DNA of 29,611 nt. Source: a virus. Position 1 is the stretch's first letter. Every line of letters begins with the position of its first letter. A model generated the notes under the pieces. That model was not told the DNA's origin and searched no databases. It saw only the letters and a program-made list of their open reading frames with translations. Shown one piece after another: positions 3,086 through 19,015 of the stretch. Location of the stretch: positions 1 through 29,611 of IMG/VR virus record IMGVR_UViG_3300046491_000198; one strand, written 5' to 3'. The translations under genes were made by a program, and so were the position numbers.

Positions 3086-4627
3086 TCATTCCAGTTGCTT
3101 CAGAATGCGCTGGCCGATCCAACGAACGACAGTGACCGCCTTGCTGTTCCCGATCGCCTTGTAGCGCGGGCCGTCCGGGCATTCGCTGGCTGGCTTGCCG
3201 CGCCAAGGTATGAGTGTGTAGTCGTCGGGCATGCCCTGGAGGCGCTCGCACTCGATGGGCGTGAGTCGCCGTACCTGAGCCGGAGTCAGTAGCGCCGGCG
3301 GGGGACTGCACGCATCCAAGGAGGCGGTGTATTCCTCGTACCATTTACCTGCGCCGCACGCCGATGTGTGATGCAGCTTGGTGCTATAGGAGGTGCTCGT
3401 AACGACATTCGGGCCGAGCGCAGAGTTTGTGTTGTCTAGCTGCTTCCCGTAGTTGCTGGTGATGGTCTGTGCGATCTCTCTGCAATACAGGACGTTCTCC
3501 TGGCCACTGTTTCGGCCCAGCGTATGGGCCTGATCGAAATTGACGCATGGATCCTGCGTTCCATGCACCACCAGGTGGCTGTGGCCGTGGTTGGCGTCCT
3601 GACCAGAGCAGCCCTGCAACCGTCCGTAACTCGCATCGAGAGTGGCGGCAACGCATGGCACATCGTCGTAGCTGTATCCACCAGACTTGCGACCGCCGCC
3701 GGCGAGCGTCGACGCTACGAAGAACGTCTCGCTCTCAATGTCCAGCCGGCTGTCTTTCGCGGTGAGGGTGGCCGACCTTTCGATCGAGCCACCCAGGCTG
3801 TGCCCGCCAAAGGCTGGGATTCCGCCGAACATCGAAACCGCCGGGCCTTCATCGCCTTCGCAGTTCACGCAGCCGTACGGTCCGAGCTCTTCGCCGAAGA
3901 CATGTCCGCATCCACACTGGAGCGCAGGGCCGAAAGGAGCTGTTCCGGTAACGTCTTGCCCCTCGCCTCGGCGCGGCGCAGTATCCCGGCGCACGCCTTC
4001 TCGCTCAAAAAGTACCTCGGTGGGATCGAATCCGTCTCGAGCACTTGCGACAACGAACACACGGCGGCGTCGTTGGGCCAGGCCGAAATATTGGGCGTCC
4101 AGGACCCGCCACGCGATTGTTCTTTTGGGTCCATACACACAACCAGCGTCCGGCCATTTTTTCCCTGAAGGCTGCAGTTCGCAGTCTTCCCCAGCAAGCG
4201 CGCCAAGAAAGCATCCGAAGGCGTTCCCTTTGTCGCTGAGGACGCCGGGGACGTTTTCCCAGACGATGACGCAGGGAGGCTTTCGTTGGCTGGCGCGAAC
4301 ATAGTCAGTTGCATCTGCAAGCTCCACGTATTTGATGGTGAGGGCACCGCGCGGATCGGCAAGGCCTTCGCGCATGCCGGCGACACTGAAGGCCTGGCAC
4401 GGTGTGCCGCCGACCAGCACGTCAGGCGCCGAAATCTTTCCGGCCAGCACCTGGGCCCCGAGTTTGGTCATGTCGCCAAGGTTCGGCGTGTTCGGGTAGT
4501 GGTGAGCCAGCACCGCGCTGGGGAAGGCTTCGATTTCCGCGAACCAGGACGCCTTCATGTTGAGCGGCTTCCAGGCGAGCGTCGCCGCTTCGATGCCGCT
4601 GCACACGCTTCCGTAAGTAATGGGCAT
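3086..4627 (-). CDS. dcm: DNA (cytosine-5) methyltransferase
   Basis: 513 residues. It transfers a methyl group from SAM to C5 of cytosine in DNA. Motifs in order: I (SVCSGIEAATLAW, residues 7-19), IV (GGTPCQAF with catalytic Cys77), VI (WENVPG, Glu124), VIII (QRRRRVFV, 185-192) and X near the C-terminus (YKAIGNSKAV). The target-recognition region is long and holds a Cys cluster (C238, C240, C253, C256) resembling a small zinc ribbon. No restriction endonuclease is adjacent, so this is most likely an orphan phage methylase that protects against host restriction or marks phage DNA. The ribosome site before the ATG at 4627 is weak. Confidence 0.92.
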   Translation of the reverse strand: MPITYGSVCSGIEAATLAWKPLNMKASWFAEIEAFPSAVLAHHYPNTPNLGDMTKLGAQVLAGKISAPDVLVGGTPCQAFSVAGMREGLADPRGALTIKYVELADATDYVRASQRKPPCVIVWENVPGVLSDKGNAFGCFLGALAGEDCELQPSGKKWPDAGCVYGPKRTIAWRVLDAQYFGLAQRRRRVFVVASARDGFDPTEVLFEREGVRRDTAPRRGEGQDVTGTAPFGPALQCGCGHVFGEELGPYGCVNCEGDEGPAVSMFGGIPAFGGHSLGGSIERSATLTAKDSRLDIESETFFVASTLAGGGRKSGGYSYDDVPCVAATLDASYGRLQGCSGQDANHGHSHLVVHGTQDPCVNFDQAHTLGRNSGQENVLYCREIAQTITSNYGKQLDNTNSALGPNVVTSTSYSTKLHHTSACGAGKWYEEYTASLDACSPPPALLTPAQVRRLTPIECERLQGMPDDYTLIPWRGKPASECPDGPRYKAIGNSKAVTVVRWIGQRILKQLE

Positions 4628-4664
4628 AATGGCTACTCGCCGGTATATGTTTCAGGAGGAAGTT

Positions 4665-5027
4665 GTGTTCGGTTTCGAGCCCATGGGCACACACGCAGAT
4701 TCAGTATCAGACGTTAGAAGGCGCATCTGTGTGGCTGCCTCGCTTACGTGTATGTCCATAATTGCTGTAGTGGTATCTGTTCAAGGGATATGGAGGCCCG
4801 CTTCGGAACCGATTGGTGTATGGGTTATGCGTTCTGGAGCGCTTGTGACGGTTTTCGCGATACTTGCCGATCATCTGCTCGCTGAGGGGCTACAGCGCCT
4901 ACCTAACCCCCTGATCAGGTACGCACCTTGGATGTCCTTCCAGCGCAAGTTGCTTGCTCTCCAGGTCATATTGGGCACAGTCATTTGGGGTTACGGTGAT
5001 CTGTTGCCATTTTTGAGCAATCCATAG
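4665..5027 (+). CDS. Small integral membrane protein (about 120 aa)
   Basis: A GTG at 4665 is preceded by AGGAGG five bases upstream, which decides the start over ATGs at 4620, 4629 and 4647. The product has hydrophobic segments at about residues 20-40 (ICVAASLTCMSIIAVVV) and 50-70, and a weaker one near the C-terminus (LLALQVILGTVIWGY), so two or three membrane helices. It is divergent from the methyltransferase and AT-richer than it. It resembles a lysogenic-conversion or superinfection-exclusion type moron by position only; the function is unknown. Confidence 0.55.
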   Translation: MFGFEPMGTHADSVSDVRRRICVAASLTCMSIIAVVVSVQGIWRPASEPIGVWVMRSGALVTVFAILADHLLAEGLQRLPNPLIRYAPWMSFQRKLLALQVILGTVIWGYGDLLPFLSNP

Positions 5028-14695: not shown

Positions 14696-15123
14696 CGCCT
14701 GTCGCCATGAAGCAGTTCATGCAGAAGTCGGAGCGCGCCAAGCCAGTCGACCGTGAAGGGCAGGAACAAGCGGCGTTGATGACCGAGTTGCGGATCCGCA
14801 TGCCTGAAGTCGCTGACTTGATCTATCACGTCCCGAACGGCGGCCATCGCGTCAAGGCCGTAGCCGCGAAGTTGAAGGCCCAGGGCGTAAAGGCCGGTAT
14901 CCCTGATCTGGTTTTGCCAATGGCCCGCGGCGGGTTCTTCGGTTTGTACATCGAATTCAAGGCAACGCCGCCGAACGATGCCGCGATTTCGTCCAGCCAG
15001 CATGAACGCATTCGCAAGCTCAATGCCCAGGGGTATCTGGCGGTGGTGTGCCGCGGGCACTTCGACACGATGGAGCAGATCCGCGCCTACCTTCGGCTCG
15101 CTCCTACAGTGGTGGCCGCATGA
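14692..15123 (+). CDS. VRR-NUC domain nuclease
   Basis: 143 residues; the ATG at 14692 overlaps the previous stop. VRR-NUC motifs: Glu in the first helix (EGQEQAALM), YHVPNGGHR (45-53), the catalytic KAGIPDLVLP with Asp72, the E-x-K pair in LYIEFKA (Glu88, Lys90), and a late Gln/Leu helix with GYLAVVCRG. The family holds structure-specific nucleases; in phages of this type it replaces RusA-like Holliday-junction resolvases next to the replication genes. Overlaps the recombinase gene by 4 bases. Confidence 0.85.
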   Translation: MTPVAMKQFMQKSERAKPVDREGQEQAALMTELRIRMPEVADLIYHVPNGGHRVKAVAAKLKAQGVKAGIPDLVLPMARGGFFGLYIEFKATPPNDAAISSSQHERIRKLNAQGYLAVVCRGHFDTMEQIRAYLRLAPTVVAA

Positions 15124-16400
15124 CCAGCGCCGCCGTGAAGATGTCCGACGCCGAGATAAAACGGCAGGCTGCCGGCGATGTTCGGGATCTGCGCGACATC
15201 GAGAATCGCGGCCTGTACCTGCGCTTCACCCGGGCTCGCGCACGTGCCTCCTGGTACCTGGTGGTGAAGGGGGAGTGGAAGCGAATAGGCGCCTTCCCGG
15301 ACCTCAACACCAAGCAGGTGATCGCGGCGCTGCCGGCCATCCGCCTGCGGCTGGAAGCCGGGACCGGCGCGAACCTGTCGAAGTGGGCCACTGTCGGCGA
15401 GCTGCTGACCTGGTATGCAGAACGCATGTCCCGCGACCGCAACCTCTCCAGCAAGCGCAAGAAGACCGGCGCGTCTGCCATCAAATGTCACCTGATGCCG
15501 CGCCTGGGTGACCTACCACTGACCGGCATCGACAAGGCGACACTCGACAGCCAGCTCATGTGGCCGCTGCAGGAAAGCATTTCCATCGACTACGTGCGCT
15601 CGGTGTTCCAGCTGCTGGCCCTGGCCTTCCGGCAGGCGTTCAAGCTGGGGCTGATCTCTGCCAACCCGATGGCGACCATCAAGTTCAACGACTTCTCCAA
15701 GGCCAAGGTCGGGATCAAACCGTCGCGCCTTCGTGGCGTGCAGCTGTCGGGCGTGCTGGAGCAGCTTGCCGCCGTCATCGTGGCTGAACCGCTGGATGCC
15801 ATGTTGGCTTTGATGATGCTCTGCCACGGCACGCGCATCGGCGAAACCCGGCAGGCACGCTGGTCACACATCAGCCTGGCCGAGCGTGAGTGGTTCATTC
15901 CGGCCGAACACACCAAGACCGGCGTCGAGCATCACCTGCCATTGACCGAGCAGGTGTGCGCACTGCTGATGCGGTACCGCGACGGTCAGTACACCCGCGG
16001 CTACGACGGCCAGTTCCTGTTCCCGGCGCGCAACGGCAAGGCCCTGAGCGAAGGCCAGGCCAGCGCCGTGTTCGCCCGGTTGGGGCAGGGCGAGTGGACC
16101 AGCCATGACCTACGCAAGGTGGCCCGTACCGGTTGGGCTGACCTCGGCATCGACCATCTAATCGGCGAGCTGCTGATCAACCACGCCATGGGTCACAACG
16201 TGAAGGTGTACATCCAGTCGGACGTGATGCGGCGCAAGCGTGATGCCTTGCAACAGTGGCACGCCCATCTAGACCAGAAGGGTTTTGCCCTGATTCACGG
16301 ATTGACCGGCTTTAGAACGGGAGATTCCGGTAATGCGCCGGAAGCCACGGAACACAAGGCCTGTGAGGCCCTTCAAGAATCAACCATAGGCGAGGTTTAA
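15120..16400 (+). CDS. Tyrosine recombinase / integrase
   Basis: 426 residues; the ATG at 15120 overlaps the nuclease stop (ATGA). The N-terminal arm-binding part (about 10-85) includes GLYLRFTRAR and WYLVVKGEWKRIGAFPDL; the core-binding domain follows (about 90-185). The catalytic domain has Arg239 (HGTRIGE), Lys266 (HTKTG), His329/Arg332 (SHDLRK), His359 (MGHN) and the nucleophile Tyr364 (VKVYIQ). All expected residues are present. It sits in the rightward PR operon rather than beside an attachment site, so it may be a second recombinase (plasmid or concatemer resolution) or an integrase expressed with lytic genes. The last 45 residues have low-complexity character. Confidence 0.9.
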   Translation: MTSAAVKMSDAEIKRQAAGDVRDLRDIENRGLYLRFTRARARASWYLVVKGEWKRIGAFPDLNTKQVIAALPAIRLRLEAGTGANLSKWATVGELLTWYAERMSRDRNLSSKRKKTGASAIKCHLMPRLGDLPLTGIDKATLDSQLMWPLQESISIDYVRSVFQLLALAFRQAFKLGLISANPMATIKFNDFSKAKVGIKPSRLRGVQLSGVLEQLAAVIVAEPLDAMLALMMLCHGTRIGETRQARWSHISLAEREWFIPAEHTKTGVEHHLPLTEQVCALLMRYRDGQYTRGYDGQFLFPARNGKALSEGQASAVFARLGQGEWTSHDLRKVARTGWADLGIDHLIGELLINHAMGHNVKVYIQSDVMRRKRDALQQWHAHLDQKGFALIHGLTGFRTGDSGNAPEATEHKACEALQESTIGEV

Positions 16401-16402
16401 AA

Positions 16403-16729
16403 ATGATGAAAAAGCAGCATGGACCCGCCTTCAGTGCTTCGCCGAAGCCGTTGAAATGGTGCGCAGCATGCAAGGGCAAAGCGGTCATCAAAGGCATATT
16501 TCATGAGCTGCCTTGCACTGAATGCCACGCCTCCGGTTGGGTTTCGGCGGAGACAGGGGAGGCGCTACCGGTCGAGGTACTCGTTACCCAGCTCGGGCTC
16601 ATGCTGAACATCTATCAGCAGCGCATTATTGCCTTTGGTAACCGGATAAATCAGCCGCCAGGCGCTCAGCAGCAATACGAACAGAACAACCGCCGCGGGG
16701 CCGGCGGATCGAACTACACAGGGGATTGA
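16403..16729 (+). CDS. Zinc-knuckle protein with DnaJ-like CxxC pairs (108 aa)
   Basis: Begins 2 bases after the recombinase stop. Two zinc-binding pairs with DnaJ-like spacing: CAACKGK (C20, C23) and CTECHASGW (C38, C41). A helical segment follows (LPVEVLVTQLGLMLNIYQQR), then a polar Gln/Asn-rich tail. Comparable small proteins sit before the late regulator in many lambdoid phages. A nucleic-acid or RNA polymerase contact is plausible but not shown. Confidence 0.65.
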   Translation: MMKKQHGPAFSASPKPLKWCAACKGKAVIKGIFHELPCTECHASGWVSAETGEALPVEVLVTQLGLMLNIYQQRIIAFGNRINQPPGAQQQYEQNNRRGAGGSNYTGD

Positions 16730-16732
16730 ACA

Positions 16733-17431
16733 ATGATCTATCCAGGCATTCTGCATGCAGTTGTTTCGGCCCTCGCGGCTGAAGCCATCGACAACACCAG
16801 CAAACAGGCATGGCAGAAACTCTACAACTCTGCCGACGAGGATGAAGGTGGCGATTTGGCGACGCTGGTTCGATCCCGAGGAGCCAGCAGCATTGATCGC
16901 ACTCAAGTGGATTGCTGGGTATCGGCCAGGTTGCATCATGGGCTTGAGCCGAAACATTGGGATGCTCTCGTCGCAAAATACAGCACGCACAAAGGCCGGA
17001 AGGTGCAAGCGATCGCCGCTCTGCAAACCATCATCACCACGCCGGCGCCGAAGTTGTTCCTCTATAAGGCGGTCACTGCGTGGGCGATCCCGCAGTTAAA
17101 GGGCGCTCGGTCAAAAGTTGTGAGTTCGGTATCCGTCGAGATTCCGCTCGATGCTCCAGCATGGCGTCGCGAAGCGATGGTGAAAGCAGCTATTGCAGCA
17201 GGTCAGGCCAAGGCCAAGAAAGACAACTCCCGATCCGCCGACATGATCGTGCTGAAGGATAGCTTCTACGATATGAACACATGGGATCTGGAAGCCAACC
17301 CCGAATCAACCAGGCGCCGTTGGAGAGCAGGAATCCACGGCACGCTTGATGAGATGGTGGTCGACGCGTTAAACCATGCTGAACTGATTCTATGTGCGGA
17401 GGGCGTCCTTATGGACCGGGAAGCATCATAA
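16733..17431 (+). CDS. Candidate late-gene regulator (Q position), 232 aa
   Basis: The ATG at 16733 has GGGGA upstream and begins 3 bases after the zinc-knuckle gene. The product has a helical N-terminal half (AVVSALAAEAIDNTSKQAWQ; SIDRTQVDCWVSARLHHGLE) and a basic middle (KAAIAAGQAKAKKDNSRSA). The C-terminal part has ESTRRRWRAGIHGTLDEMVV. I recognise no named domain with certainty. Position at the end of the early-right operon, before terminators and the holin, is that of a Q-type antiterminator; this is inference from context. Confidence 0.5.
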   Translation: MIYPGILHAVVSALAAEAIDNTSKQAWQKLYNSADEDEGGDLATLVRSRGASSIDRTQVDCWVSARLHHGLEPKHWDALVAKYSTHKGRKVQAIAALQTIITTPAPKLFLYKAVTAWAIPQLKGARSKVVSSVSVEIPLDAPAWRREAMVKAAIAAGQAKAKKDNSRSADMIVLKDSFYDMNTWDLEANPESTRRRWRAGIHGTLDEMVVDALNHAELILCAEGVLMDREAS

Positions 17432-17467
17432 ATGCGAAGATCGTGCCCATTCATAAAGGAATTGGCC

Positions 17468-18460
17468 ATGGATGATCTGGAAAGTTTACGTGTTGGGTAT
17501 CAAGATGTTTTTCCTAGAGCCGAGAGGCTTAAAAATGCAGTAATCGCGGAACTTCAGGAATTGTTTCATAAGCATGGAGTTTCTCTTGGGGTGCCAATTG
17601 AAAGTCGAGTAAAAACTTGGAGTTCAATTACTGATAAAATTGACCGAAAAGGGGCCGAAATATCTTCGATTGTTGATTTGTCGGATTTGATCGGTATTCG
17701 CGTTATATTATTGTTCAAAAAGGATTTGGACTCGGTTCGTGACATTGTAGCTAAAAATTTTGAATTGATATCCTCGGAGGATACTGGTGAGAGATTAAGC
17801 GAATCCGAGTTCGGCTATCAGTCGCATCATTATATTGTTAAGATTCCTTCGAACTGGCTTTCTGTTCCTACTTGGGCGGGTTTCGGTGGTTTTTCGCTGG
17901 AACTTCAGGTTAGAACGATGGCCCAACATATTTGGGCAGCTGCGTCCCATAAACTTCAATACAAGCAAGAGTCCGGCGTCCCCCACCCCATTCGGCGAAC
18001 TATAAACAGGGTATCTGCCCTTTTGGAAACAGTTGATCTTGAACTTCAACGAGTGTTGGACGAGCGCGTGGCTTACAAAGAACATGCGTCGGATGCTGTT
18101 TCTCAAAAGCCATCTATTGAGGATGAGTTGAACGTCGACAACTTGTCTGTGATTCTGAGTGAGGTATTTCCCAGTATTAATAAGCATGAATTTGAGGACT
18201 ATTCGGACCTCCTCAGTGATATGTTTGCTCTGGGGGTTACCACACGCTCACAAGCGATAGATATCTTCAAGAAAAATTATGCTCACGCAATGGCGGAAGA
18301 AAATAGGCTCGTGCAGGCGGGAAACCACGATTTTGACGACGAACCGGACTTTCGACCAGCGGGTGTCTACTTCAAGCACGTCGGTCTCGCTCGAGAGGCA
18401 CTCAGGGGTGAGTTCGGGTCAAGCGCTGTCAGCGAAGCGAAAAAAGCGCGTAGGAGTTGA
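17468..18460 (+). CDS. RelA/SpoT-domain alarmone synthetase (SAS / toxSAS-like)
   Basis: 330 residues; the ATG at 17468 has AAGGA upstream. The synthetase fold spans about 40-200: RVKTWSSITDKIDRKG (Arg47, Lys49, Ser52, Lys57, Arg60), DLIGIRVI (metal-binding Asp73), FGYQSHHYIV (guanine-stacking Tyr117, His120) and LELQVRTMAQHIWA (Glu145, Arg149, His154), then HKLQYK. All key residues for pyrophosphate transfer are present; there is no HD hydrolase domain. The C-terminal 130 residues are acidic and helical and match no regulatory domain I know. The gene is markedly AT-richer than its neighbours and looks transferred. The product could be pppGpp, ppApp or tRNA pyrophosphorylation; no separate antitoxin gene adjoins. 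Confidence 0.88.
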   Translation: MDDLESLRVGYQDVFPRAERLKNAVIAELQELFHKHGVSLGVPIESRVKTWSSITDKIDRKGAEISSIVDLSDLIGIRVILLFKKDLDSVRDIVAKNFELISSEDTGERLSESEFGYQSHHYIVKIPSNWLSVPTWAGFGGFSLELQVRTMAQHIWAAASHKLQYKQESGVPHPIRRTINRVSALLETVDLELQRVLDERVAYKEHASDAVSQKPSIEDELNVDNLSVILSEVFPSINKHEFEDYSDLLSDMFALGVTTRSQAIDIFKKNYAHAMAEENRLVQAGNHDFDDEPDFRPAGVYFKHVGLAREALRGEFGSSAVSEAKKARRS

Positions 18461-18529
18461 CAAGCATGAGCGTCTGAGCGAAATTAATCCCATCATGTCG
18501 ATCTTGCGCGTTATGAGAGACGACACCAA

Positions 18530-18554
18530 AGCTCAGCCATCCGCTGGGCTTTTT
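18530..18554 (+). terminator. Intrinsic terminator, first of a tandem pair
   Basis: Stem AGCTCAGC (18530-18537) / GCTGGGCT (18543-18550) with one T-G pair and loop CATCC, then a T-run. It lies 70 bases after the alarmone synthetase stop. Confidence 0.75.
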
Positions 18555-18568
18555 GCTATCTGCCCAAG

Positions 18569-18594
18569 AGCCCCGCCATCGTGCGGGGCTTTTT
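18569..18594 (+). terminator. Intrinsic terminator, second of a tandem pair
   Basis: Stem AGCCCCGC (18569-18576) / GCGGGGCT (18583-18590), 6-base loop, then TTTT. Two strong terminators just before the lysis genes mean the late transcript must be antiterminated or start after them. Confidence 0.85.
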
Positions 18595-18682
18595 CGTTTT
18601 CGGCTCCACCACACCCATTGCTCCGAGCTGGGAGTGCTGTTGGGGCCGAGCCTATCTCGCTCCCCGCAAGGGAGGATGCCGG

Positions 18683-19015
18683 ATGTCACATATGCCAGAG
18701 AAGAACCCAGAGACCTGGCTCATCGTCATGGCCTGGCTCAGCCAGCACGCCCCTATGTTCTATGCCGCGGCGCTGTCGTGCTGGATCGCCTTCTTGCGTG
18801 TCATCTACGGTGGAGGCGGCCGGCGACAAGCCCTGCTTGAGTCCTGCCTGTGTGGTGCGATTACCGCCGGGGCATTCCCGCTGCTTGAGTACTTCAACCT
18901 TCCATCGAGCCTTGCAGCTGCTGTCGGCGCCTGCATCGGCACCCTCGGCGTGAAGAAGGTCGCCGCCTTGGCCGACCGATTCACTGACTTCAAATTGCCC
19001 AAGCGGCAGGAGTGA
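18683..19015 (+). CDS. Lambda-family phage holin
   Basis: 110 residues; GGAGG lies 7 bases before the ATG at 18683 (ATG 18692 is an alternative that gives MPEKNPETW). Membrane segments at about 12-38 (WLIVMAWLSQHAPMFYAAAL), 50-70 (LLESCLCGAITAGAFPLL) and 76-92 (LAAAVGACIGTLGV), with the basic GGGGRR turn and the charged C-terminus usual for this holin family. It makes the inner-membrane lesion at the time of lysis. First gene after the tandem terminators. Confidence 0.8.
   Translation: MSHMPEKNPETWLIVMAWLSQHAPMFYAAALSCWIAFLRVIYGGGGRRQALLESCLCGAITAGAFPLLEYFNLPSSLAAAVGACIGTLGVKKVAALADRFTDFKLPKRQE

Follow-up and report, generated by a model that had tools for sequence, protein, structure and literature searches.

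A gene of a Pseudomonas-type lambdoid phage or prophage, P0001, encodes what by its sequence is an intact RelA/SpoT-type alarmone synthetase (SAS) of predicted activity, extended by an acidic helical tail. It most likely is a single-gene, single-chain anti-phage effector carried as mobile accessory cargo; we assign to this reading a probability of about one half. The gene lies in a complete IMG/VR record of 29,611 bases, which was analysed over its whole length (the window). The gene order on the plus strand of the record is: anti-repressor, O-like and P-like replication genes, an integrase-like gene, a Q-like regulator, holin, HNH nuclease and terminase. The features of the P0001 locus are listed in Table 1.

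Table 1. Features of the P0001 locus, in positions of the window.
Feature	Position	Strand	Basis
Q-like late regulator, bounding the cassette site on the left	16733..17431	+	phrog_3412, E 4.3e-78
Ribosome site AAAGGAA of P0001	17455-17461	+	sequence reading
SAS gene with C-terminal domain (P0001)	17468..18460	+	330 aa open frame
Synthetase part, aa 1-204	17468..18079	+	Pfam domain aa 46-168, catalytic residues, PDB matches
C-terminal six-helix acidic domain, aa 205-330 (126 aa)	18080..18457	+	AlphaFold2, no matched fold
Late-promoter-like element (TTGACA, 17 nt, GAAATTAAT, CCCATCATGTC...)	18457..18531	+	conserved in Q loci
Two tandem terminators of the late leader	18531..18597	+	stems 18531-18549 and 18566-18593
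Holin, right flank of the accessory region	18683..19015	+	PF05106, E 1.2e-24; phrog_126

The initial annotation, made from the sequence alone, had placed a RelA/SpoT-type synthetase gene here, and the open reading frame was confirmed. An alternative in-frame ATG is present upstream, at position 17432; the start was set at 17468 because the ribosome site and the homologue in the related phage L002 back it. The gene was also correctly described as AT-richer than its neighbours. Its GC content is 0.454, versus 0.572 for the whole record, and the lowest-GC 993-nt windows of the entire record all lie on it, making it the most AT-rich kilobase. The integrase-like gene, encoding a tyrosine recombinase (15048-16400, plus strand, phrog_1), is situated within the region between the replication genes and Q and not near an attachment site; the same placement is annotated in phages PseuP_224 and VW-6S. 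A C-5 cytosine DNA methylase of 513 aa (3086-4627, minus strand, PF00145, E 8e-37) is encoded near the left end of the record.

The site between the late regulator and the probable late promoter

Homologues of the Q-like gene are annotated as "putative antitermination protein Q". A strongly conserved element of 75 nt, formed by TTGACA, 17 nt, GAAATTA, and then CCCATC and TGTC..., was recognised in 70 of the 113 Q loci scanned. In 64 of these 70 loci it starts 3-12 nt past the Q stop codon. In the P0001 record and in the related L001 and L002 it starts 978-1026 nt past Q, right behind the SAS gene or overlapping its end; the stop codon of P0001 itself falls within TTGACA. Position and sequence suggest that this element is the late promoter, by analogy to lambda PR'.

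The late promoter and the tandem terminators (the second stem derives from a terminator scan, the first from direct reading) also occur in the SAS-free relative L163. The terminators were considered as the SAS gene's own, and this was ruled out by their presence in SAS-free relatives. Thus the initial annotation was right about the position of the gene between the late regulator and tandem terminators, but the latter belong to the late leader, and the late-promoter-like element intervenes. DNA identity to L163 is 0.94-0.97 in Q until about position 17200, then drops, and is again 0.93-0.95 from about 18490, whereas identity to L001 is 0.8-0.9 from about 17250 to 18250. Therefore the final ~180 nt of Q arrived with the cassette, whose other edge lies at the promoter.

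Both ends of the slot between Q and holin are present in 59 loci, many of them from related phages, so that the counts are not independent. The slot is nearly empty (24-203 nt) in 10 loci and contains the SAS gene in four (the P0001 record, the L001 contig, L002 and L119); most of the remaining loci carry other cargo. The late-promoter-like element seems to separate two adjacent accessory sites. Accessory sites of prophages and satellites are known immunity hotspots (PMC11364771 and references therein).

Most other cargo of the Q loci (L161-L240) is situated behind the terminators of the late-promoter-like element, and the SAS gene, like the cargo of L170, L194 and L159, in front of the element. 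In L189 a cargo protein of 210 aa, encoded in the slot about 108 nt after Q, matches the PADLOC candidate family PDC-S67 (E 3.9e-16). PDC families are candidates, still uncharacterised (PMC12482510).

A consensus promoter scan of positions 16700-19000 recognised no promoter; the same weak scan also missed the conserved late-promoter element. Since P0001 lies between Q and the late promoter with no promoter of its own recognised, it may be read only together with Q. In that case a quiet lysogen would not express it, a poor fit to a gene guarding the lysogen. Expression is thus the main difficulty of the defence reading, and transcription with Q only may suit a role in the lytic phase as well.

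One such role, which we consider rather unlikely, is that of a phage-timing enzyme. Expressed alongside Q in the delayed-early phase, the SAS would raise (p)ppGpp and so redirect host transcription or shift the balance of lysis and lysogeny, and the tail would do no more than regulate the enzyme by way of a metabolite or a host protein. Three related phages indeed have the gene precisely in the gap from Q to the late promoter, with no promoter of its own recognised, its catalytic domain is closest to the (p)ppGpp-making RelQ and RelP (see below), and (p)ppGpp can make many Pseudomonas putida phages either more or less successful (PMC12814882). However, most Q-carrying relatives have no SAS, and the same tailed gene occurs in P4-like satellites, P2-like prophages, a filamentous phage, an integron and chromosomes, where there is no Q timing.

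Relatives and their neighbourhoods

A scan of viral contigs and 84,980 genomes yielded 23 relatives (P0001 included) with 40-81% identity over the full length, tail included; homologues are 81, 70 and 47% identical to P0001. All 23 are uninterrupted frames, and in 22 of the 23 loci the GC content of the SAS gene is below that of its flanks. The family is rare: of 399 Pseudomonas species genomes sampled, five (about 1%) contained full-length members, and 14 some match at E 1e-40 or better.

The genomic contexts, derived from reading of open frames and with ten neighbours confirmed by Pfam, are diverse. The SAS gene adjoins an integrase in a P4-like element (L093), which has a chromosomal counterpart with a Toprim primase (L013). 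It adjoins dnaB in L094 and the P2-type genes gpD and gpJ in L095 and L098, respectively. It stands between integrase and terminase, in this order, in L100, and follows the zot gene of a filamentous phage in L101. In L099 an AAA ATPase and a RloB protein are encoded about one to two kb from it. In L014 (Azonexus) the gene is an integron cassette: attC-like sites lie on both sides of it, the first ending 12 nt before its start, in an array that contains a 93%-identical attC pair. A relative whose tail is of the same kind is encoded at 3980-4990 in a Vibrio filamentous phage, L009 (PQ189320.1), downstream of a gene annotated as gene-1-like, a placement that resembles the one after zot in L101.

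The SAS gene moves alone among accessory sites of unrelated mobile elements. Such a range of carriers, from phages and satellites to an integron and the vicinity of a RloB gene, is in keeping with defence cargo. In addition, all 38 aligned family members match the PADLOC candidate family PDC-S33 (E down to 1e-21), whose model length of 349 aa is like that of the family proteins, although the match of P0001 (E 1.2e-15) spans the synthetase part only, aa 39-160 against profile positions 63-178 of 349. In PHROG the protein matches phrog_9640 (E 1.5e-39).

All open reading frames within 2.5 kb of the gene were clustered across 25 loci. No antitoxin-like neighbour was found in these loci, either here or in the 24 others, as the initial annotation had said of P0001. 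The shared neighbours are backbone genes of the same element type only. As no neighbour is common beyond one element type, no antitoxin acting in trans is visible, and a hidden antitoxin gene near the SAS was rejected for these 25 loci. The description of P0001 as a self-contained prophage SAS and likely defence cargo thus holds as regards its solitary state, accessory position and mobile distribution, but not the comparison of its tail with that of CapRel (see below).

The solitary, mobile, low-GC gene, present on plasmids and phages, might also be explained as a selfish toxin or addiction gene, that is, a self-restrained SAS that stabilises its carrier element and has no dedicated phage sensor. 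A distant relative on a 3.5 kb ColE1-type plasmid would agree with this. However, there is no separate labile antitoxin nearby, so killing upon loss of the gene would have no antidote to decay, and a changing partner better explains the fast evolution of the tail described in the next section. We regard this explanation as improbable.

The synthetase domain and its C-terminal tail

The only Pfam domain of P0001 is PF04607 (RelA/SpoT; aa 46-168, E 1.5e-21); there is no hydrolase domain. Arg47, Lys49, Asp73, Tyr117, Glu145 and His154, listed in the initial annotation, are all at these positions. The first five (ATP, Mg and G-loop residues) are invariant in the 38 aligned sequences; position 154 is histidine in 33 of them and aspartate in five.

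The catalytic domain is nearer to RelQ and RelP than to toxSAS. Among PDB sequences the family profile assigns 92 bits to RelQ, 77-62 to RelP, 22 to CapRel (E 6e-4, through the synthetase domain), 18 to FaRel2 and 17 to long Rel. The single-sequence match of P0001 to RelQ/RelP (E 1e-16) covers only aa 44-199. With an AlphaFold2 model of the full protein (pLDDT 90.5, pTM 0.71), RelQ and RelP rank first among PDB structures (TMt 0.66-0.78), and CapRel aligns through the synthetase domain only (TM 0.35-0.38, rmsd about 19). Resemblance in sequence and predicted fold does not fix the product, but it leans towards a nucleotide alarmone.

The tail was correctly noted to be acidic (pI 4.9, net charge -9) and matches no Pfam family. 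The AlphaFold2 model of the tail alone is all-helical, with six helices (pLDDT 89.7, pTM 0.81), and the tail is thus confidently predicted to fold as an independent domain. It has no match beyond chance among PDB sequences (best E 0.087) and no fold better than E 2.3 among PDB structures. A likeness to the cFLIP death-effector domain (E 0.11, several entries) was treated as chance, as the structure search gave no support to it.

Several motifs of the tail are conserved, namely LNVD, PxxN and HVGLARxxL. G306 and R309 are kept in all 38 aligned sequences, and P235 in at least 90%. The tail-bearing SASs of the alignment include those of Clostridia, Zixibacteria, Paenibacillus, Prevotella and Actinomadura. 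To judge by this alignment, the tail is an old domain that is not particular to phages and occurs on chromosomal SASs of several phyla as well.

The two parts of the protein evolve at different rates. Between P0001 and its L001 homologue, dN is 0.046 and dN/dS 0.05 for the enzyme, compared to 0.264 and 0.24 for the tail, an approximately six-fold difference at amino-acid-changing sites. The tail is the faster part in all eight pairs compared. The dN/dS values of the N-terminal part are 0.03-0.12 across these pairs, and therefore the enzyme is under purifying selection. The tail values of 0.2-0.3 still correspond to net purifying selection. Such fast evolution fits a sensor facing a changing partner; relaxed constraint would also explain these sequence data.

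Relatives of the SAS at 25-35% identity bear other tails, among them one of TPR type and another conserved one, and hence the tails look interchangeable.

TPR-like C-terminal repeats replace the helical tail in the relatives L010:4989-6425, L050 and L067, one of which is encoded between toxin-antitoxin genes on a Limnohabitans plasmid. Yet another tail is found in a relative of 378 aa in L012 (NZ_CP058965.1), one of four annotated genes of a 3.5 kb ColRNAI-type Klebsiella plasmid.

An ordinary housekeeping SAS acquired by a phage, with a passive tail or one serving oligomerisation, would account for a synthetase part that is like RelQ and RelP in sequence and fold, and for the same-tailed enzymes on chromosomes in several phyla. 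However, RelQ and RelP stop at about 210 aa and do not account for the tail, the family is rare and scattered over accessory sites, and its GC content is almost always below that of the surroundings. It is quite improbable that P0001 is such an enzyme. That it is a true CapRel-type fused toxin-antitoxin with a pseudo-zinc-finger tail, despite the same two-part layout, the similar length (330 versus 373 aa) and the profile match of the synthetase domains, is very improbable in view of an all-helical tail that matches no CapRel fold and the absence of the YXXY motif from all 30 tails of the P0001 cluster.

Proposed mechanism and comparison with known systems

For the anti-phage effector considered most likely here, the following mechanism may be proposed. 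Firstly, the helical tail would hold the enzyme inactive in healthy cells. Secondly, the same tail would sense an invader protein or an infection signal. Once triggered, the N-terminal domain would move pyrophosphate from ATP to a purine nucleotide in the manner of RelQ and RelP; tRNA ends are an alternative target, less likely from the sequence of P0001. Finally, growth arrest by the released enzyme would cut the infection short. The control logic would be that of CapRel with an unrelated control domain, and P0001, if it has no promoter of its own, would be read with the Q operon.

The evidence in favour of defence comprises the invariant catalytic residues, purifying selection on the enzyme, a separately folding and fast-evolving tail, and the solitary state of the gene in 25 of 25 loci. 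To this are added the accessory sites (the lambdoid slot between Q and the promoter, P4-like satellites, P2-like prophages, a filamentous phage, an integrase-terminase element, an integron cassette and the vicinity of AAA/RloB genes), the rarity of the family, its match to PDC-S33, and the PDC-S67 cargo near the same slot. On the other hand, the tail does not contain YXXY, the one known autoinhibitory motif; it is under net purifying selection and may also be under relaxed constraint; and PDC-S33 is a candidate family. On the whole, the interpretation in the initial annotation is partly supported. Control of the enzyme by the tail is something we infer, and a tail of the CapRel or toxSAS antitoxin type, as suggested there, is contradicted by the motif and structure comparisons.

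A broader proposal can be made only tentatively. The tail may be a new sensor-inhibitor fold, and the family may belong to a modular group of immune enzymes built from one alarmone-synthetase core and interchangeable, unrelated C-terminal domains (helical, TPR and others) that each respond to a trigger of their own. Should the tail indeed restrain and trigger the enzyme, immunity by alarmone synthetases would extend beyond CapRel and toxSAS, would work with a RelQ-like core in place of a toxSAS one, and would have recruited unrelated control domains on more than one occasion. Functional tests would be eased by the many natural variants, 81% to 40% identical and diverging fastest in the tail, and by the clean empty sites. 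The gap from Q to the late promoter is also identified as an exactly located site for accessory genes in a common group of Pseudomonas prophages.

Defence by SASs of prophages is established for CapRel-SJ46 and Phrann (PMC9712102); the Phrann gp29/gp30 pair, as described in that paper, excludes other phages. In the bipartite toxSAS systems (FaRel, FaRel2, PhRel, PhRel2, Phrann gp29/gp30) the SAS fold, mobility and presence in prophages are shared with P0001, but an antitoxin gene adjoins the toxin, whereas none recurs by the P0001 family, and the profile score of FaRel2 is low. RelQ and RelP (YjbM, YwaC) come closest to the catalytic domain in both sequence and fold, but they are tail-less resident chromosomal proteins, unlike the mobile P0001.

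CapRel (CapRel-SJ46, CapRel-Ebc) is similar to P0001 in being a prophage-borne single chain with an N-terminal RelA/SpoT synthetase and no separate antitoxin. It acts in phage defence, and its phage-sensing C-terminal domain is the least conserved part (PMC9712102), as is the tail of P0001. The synthetase domains are only distantly related, however. The C-terminal domain of CapRel contains a pseudo-zinc-finger and YXXY, the neutralising motif of CapRel and ATfaRel2 (PMC9712102, PMC11782079), in place of the six helices predicted here, and by fold and motif the membership of P0001 in CapRel was rejected. Most likely P0001 is an alarmone-synthetase defence effector with CapRel-like logic, in which an unrelated helical tail is joined to a RelQ-like core.
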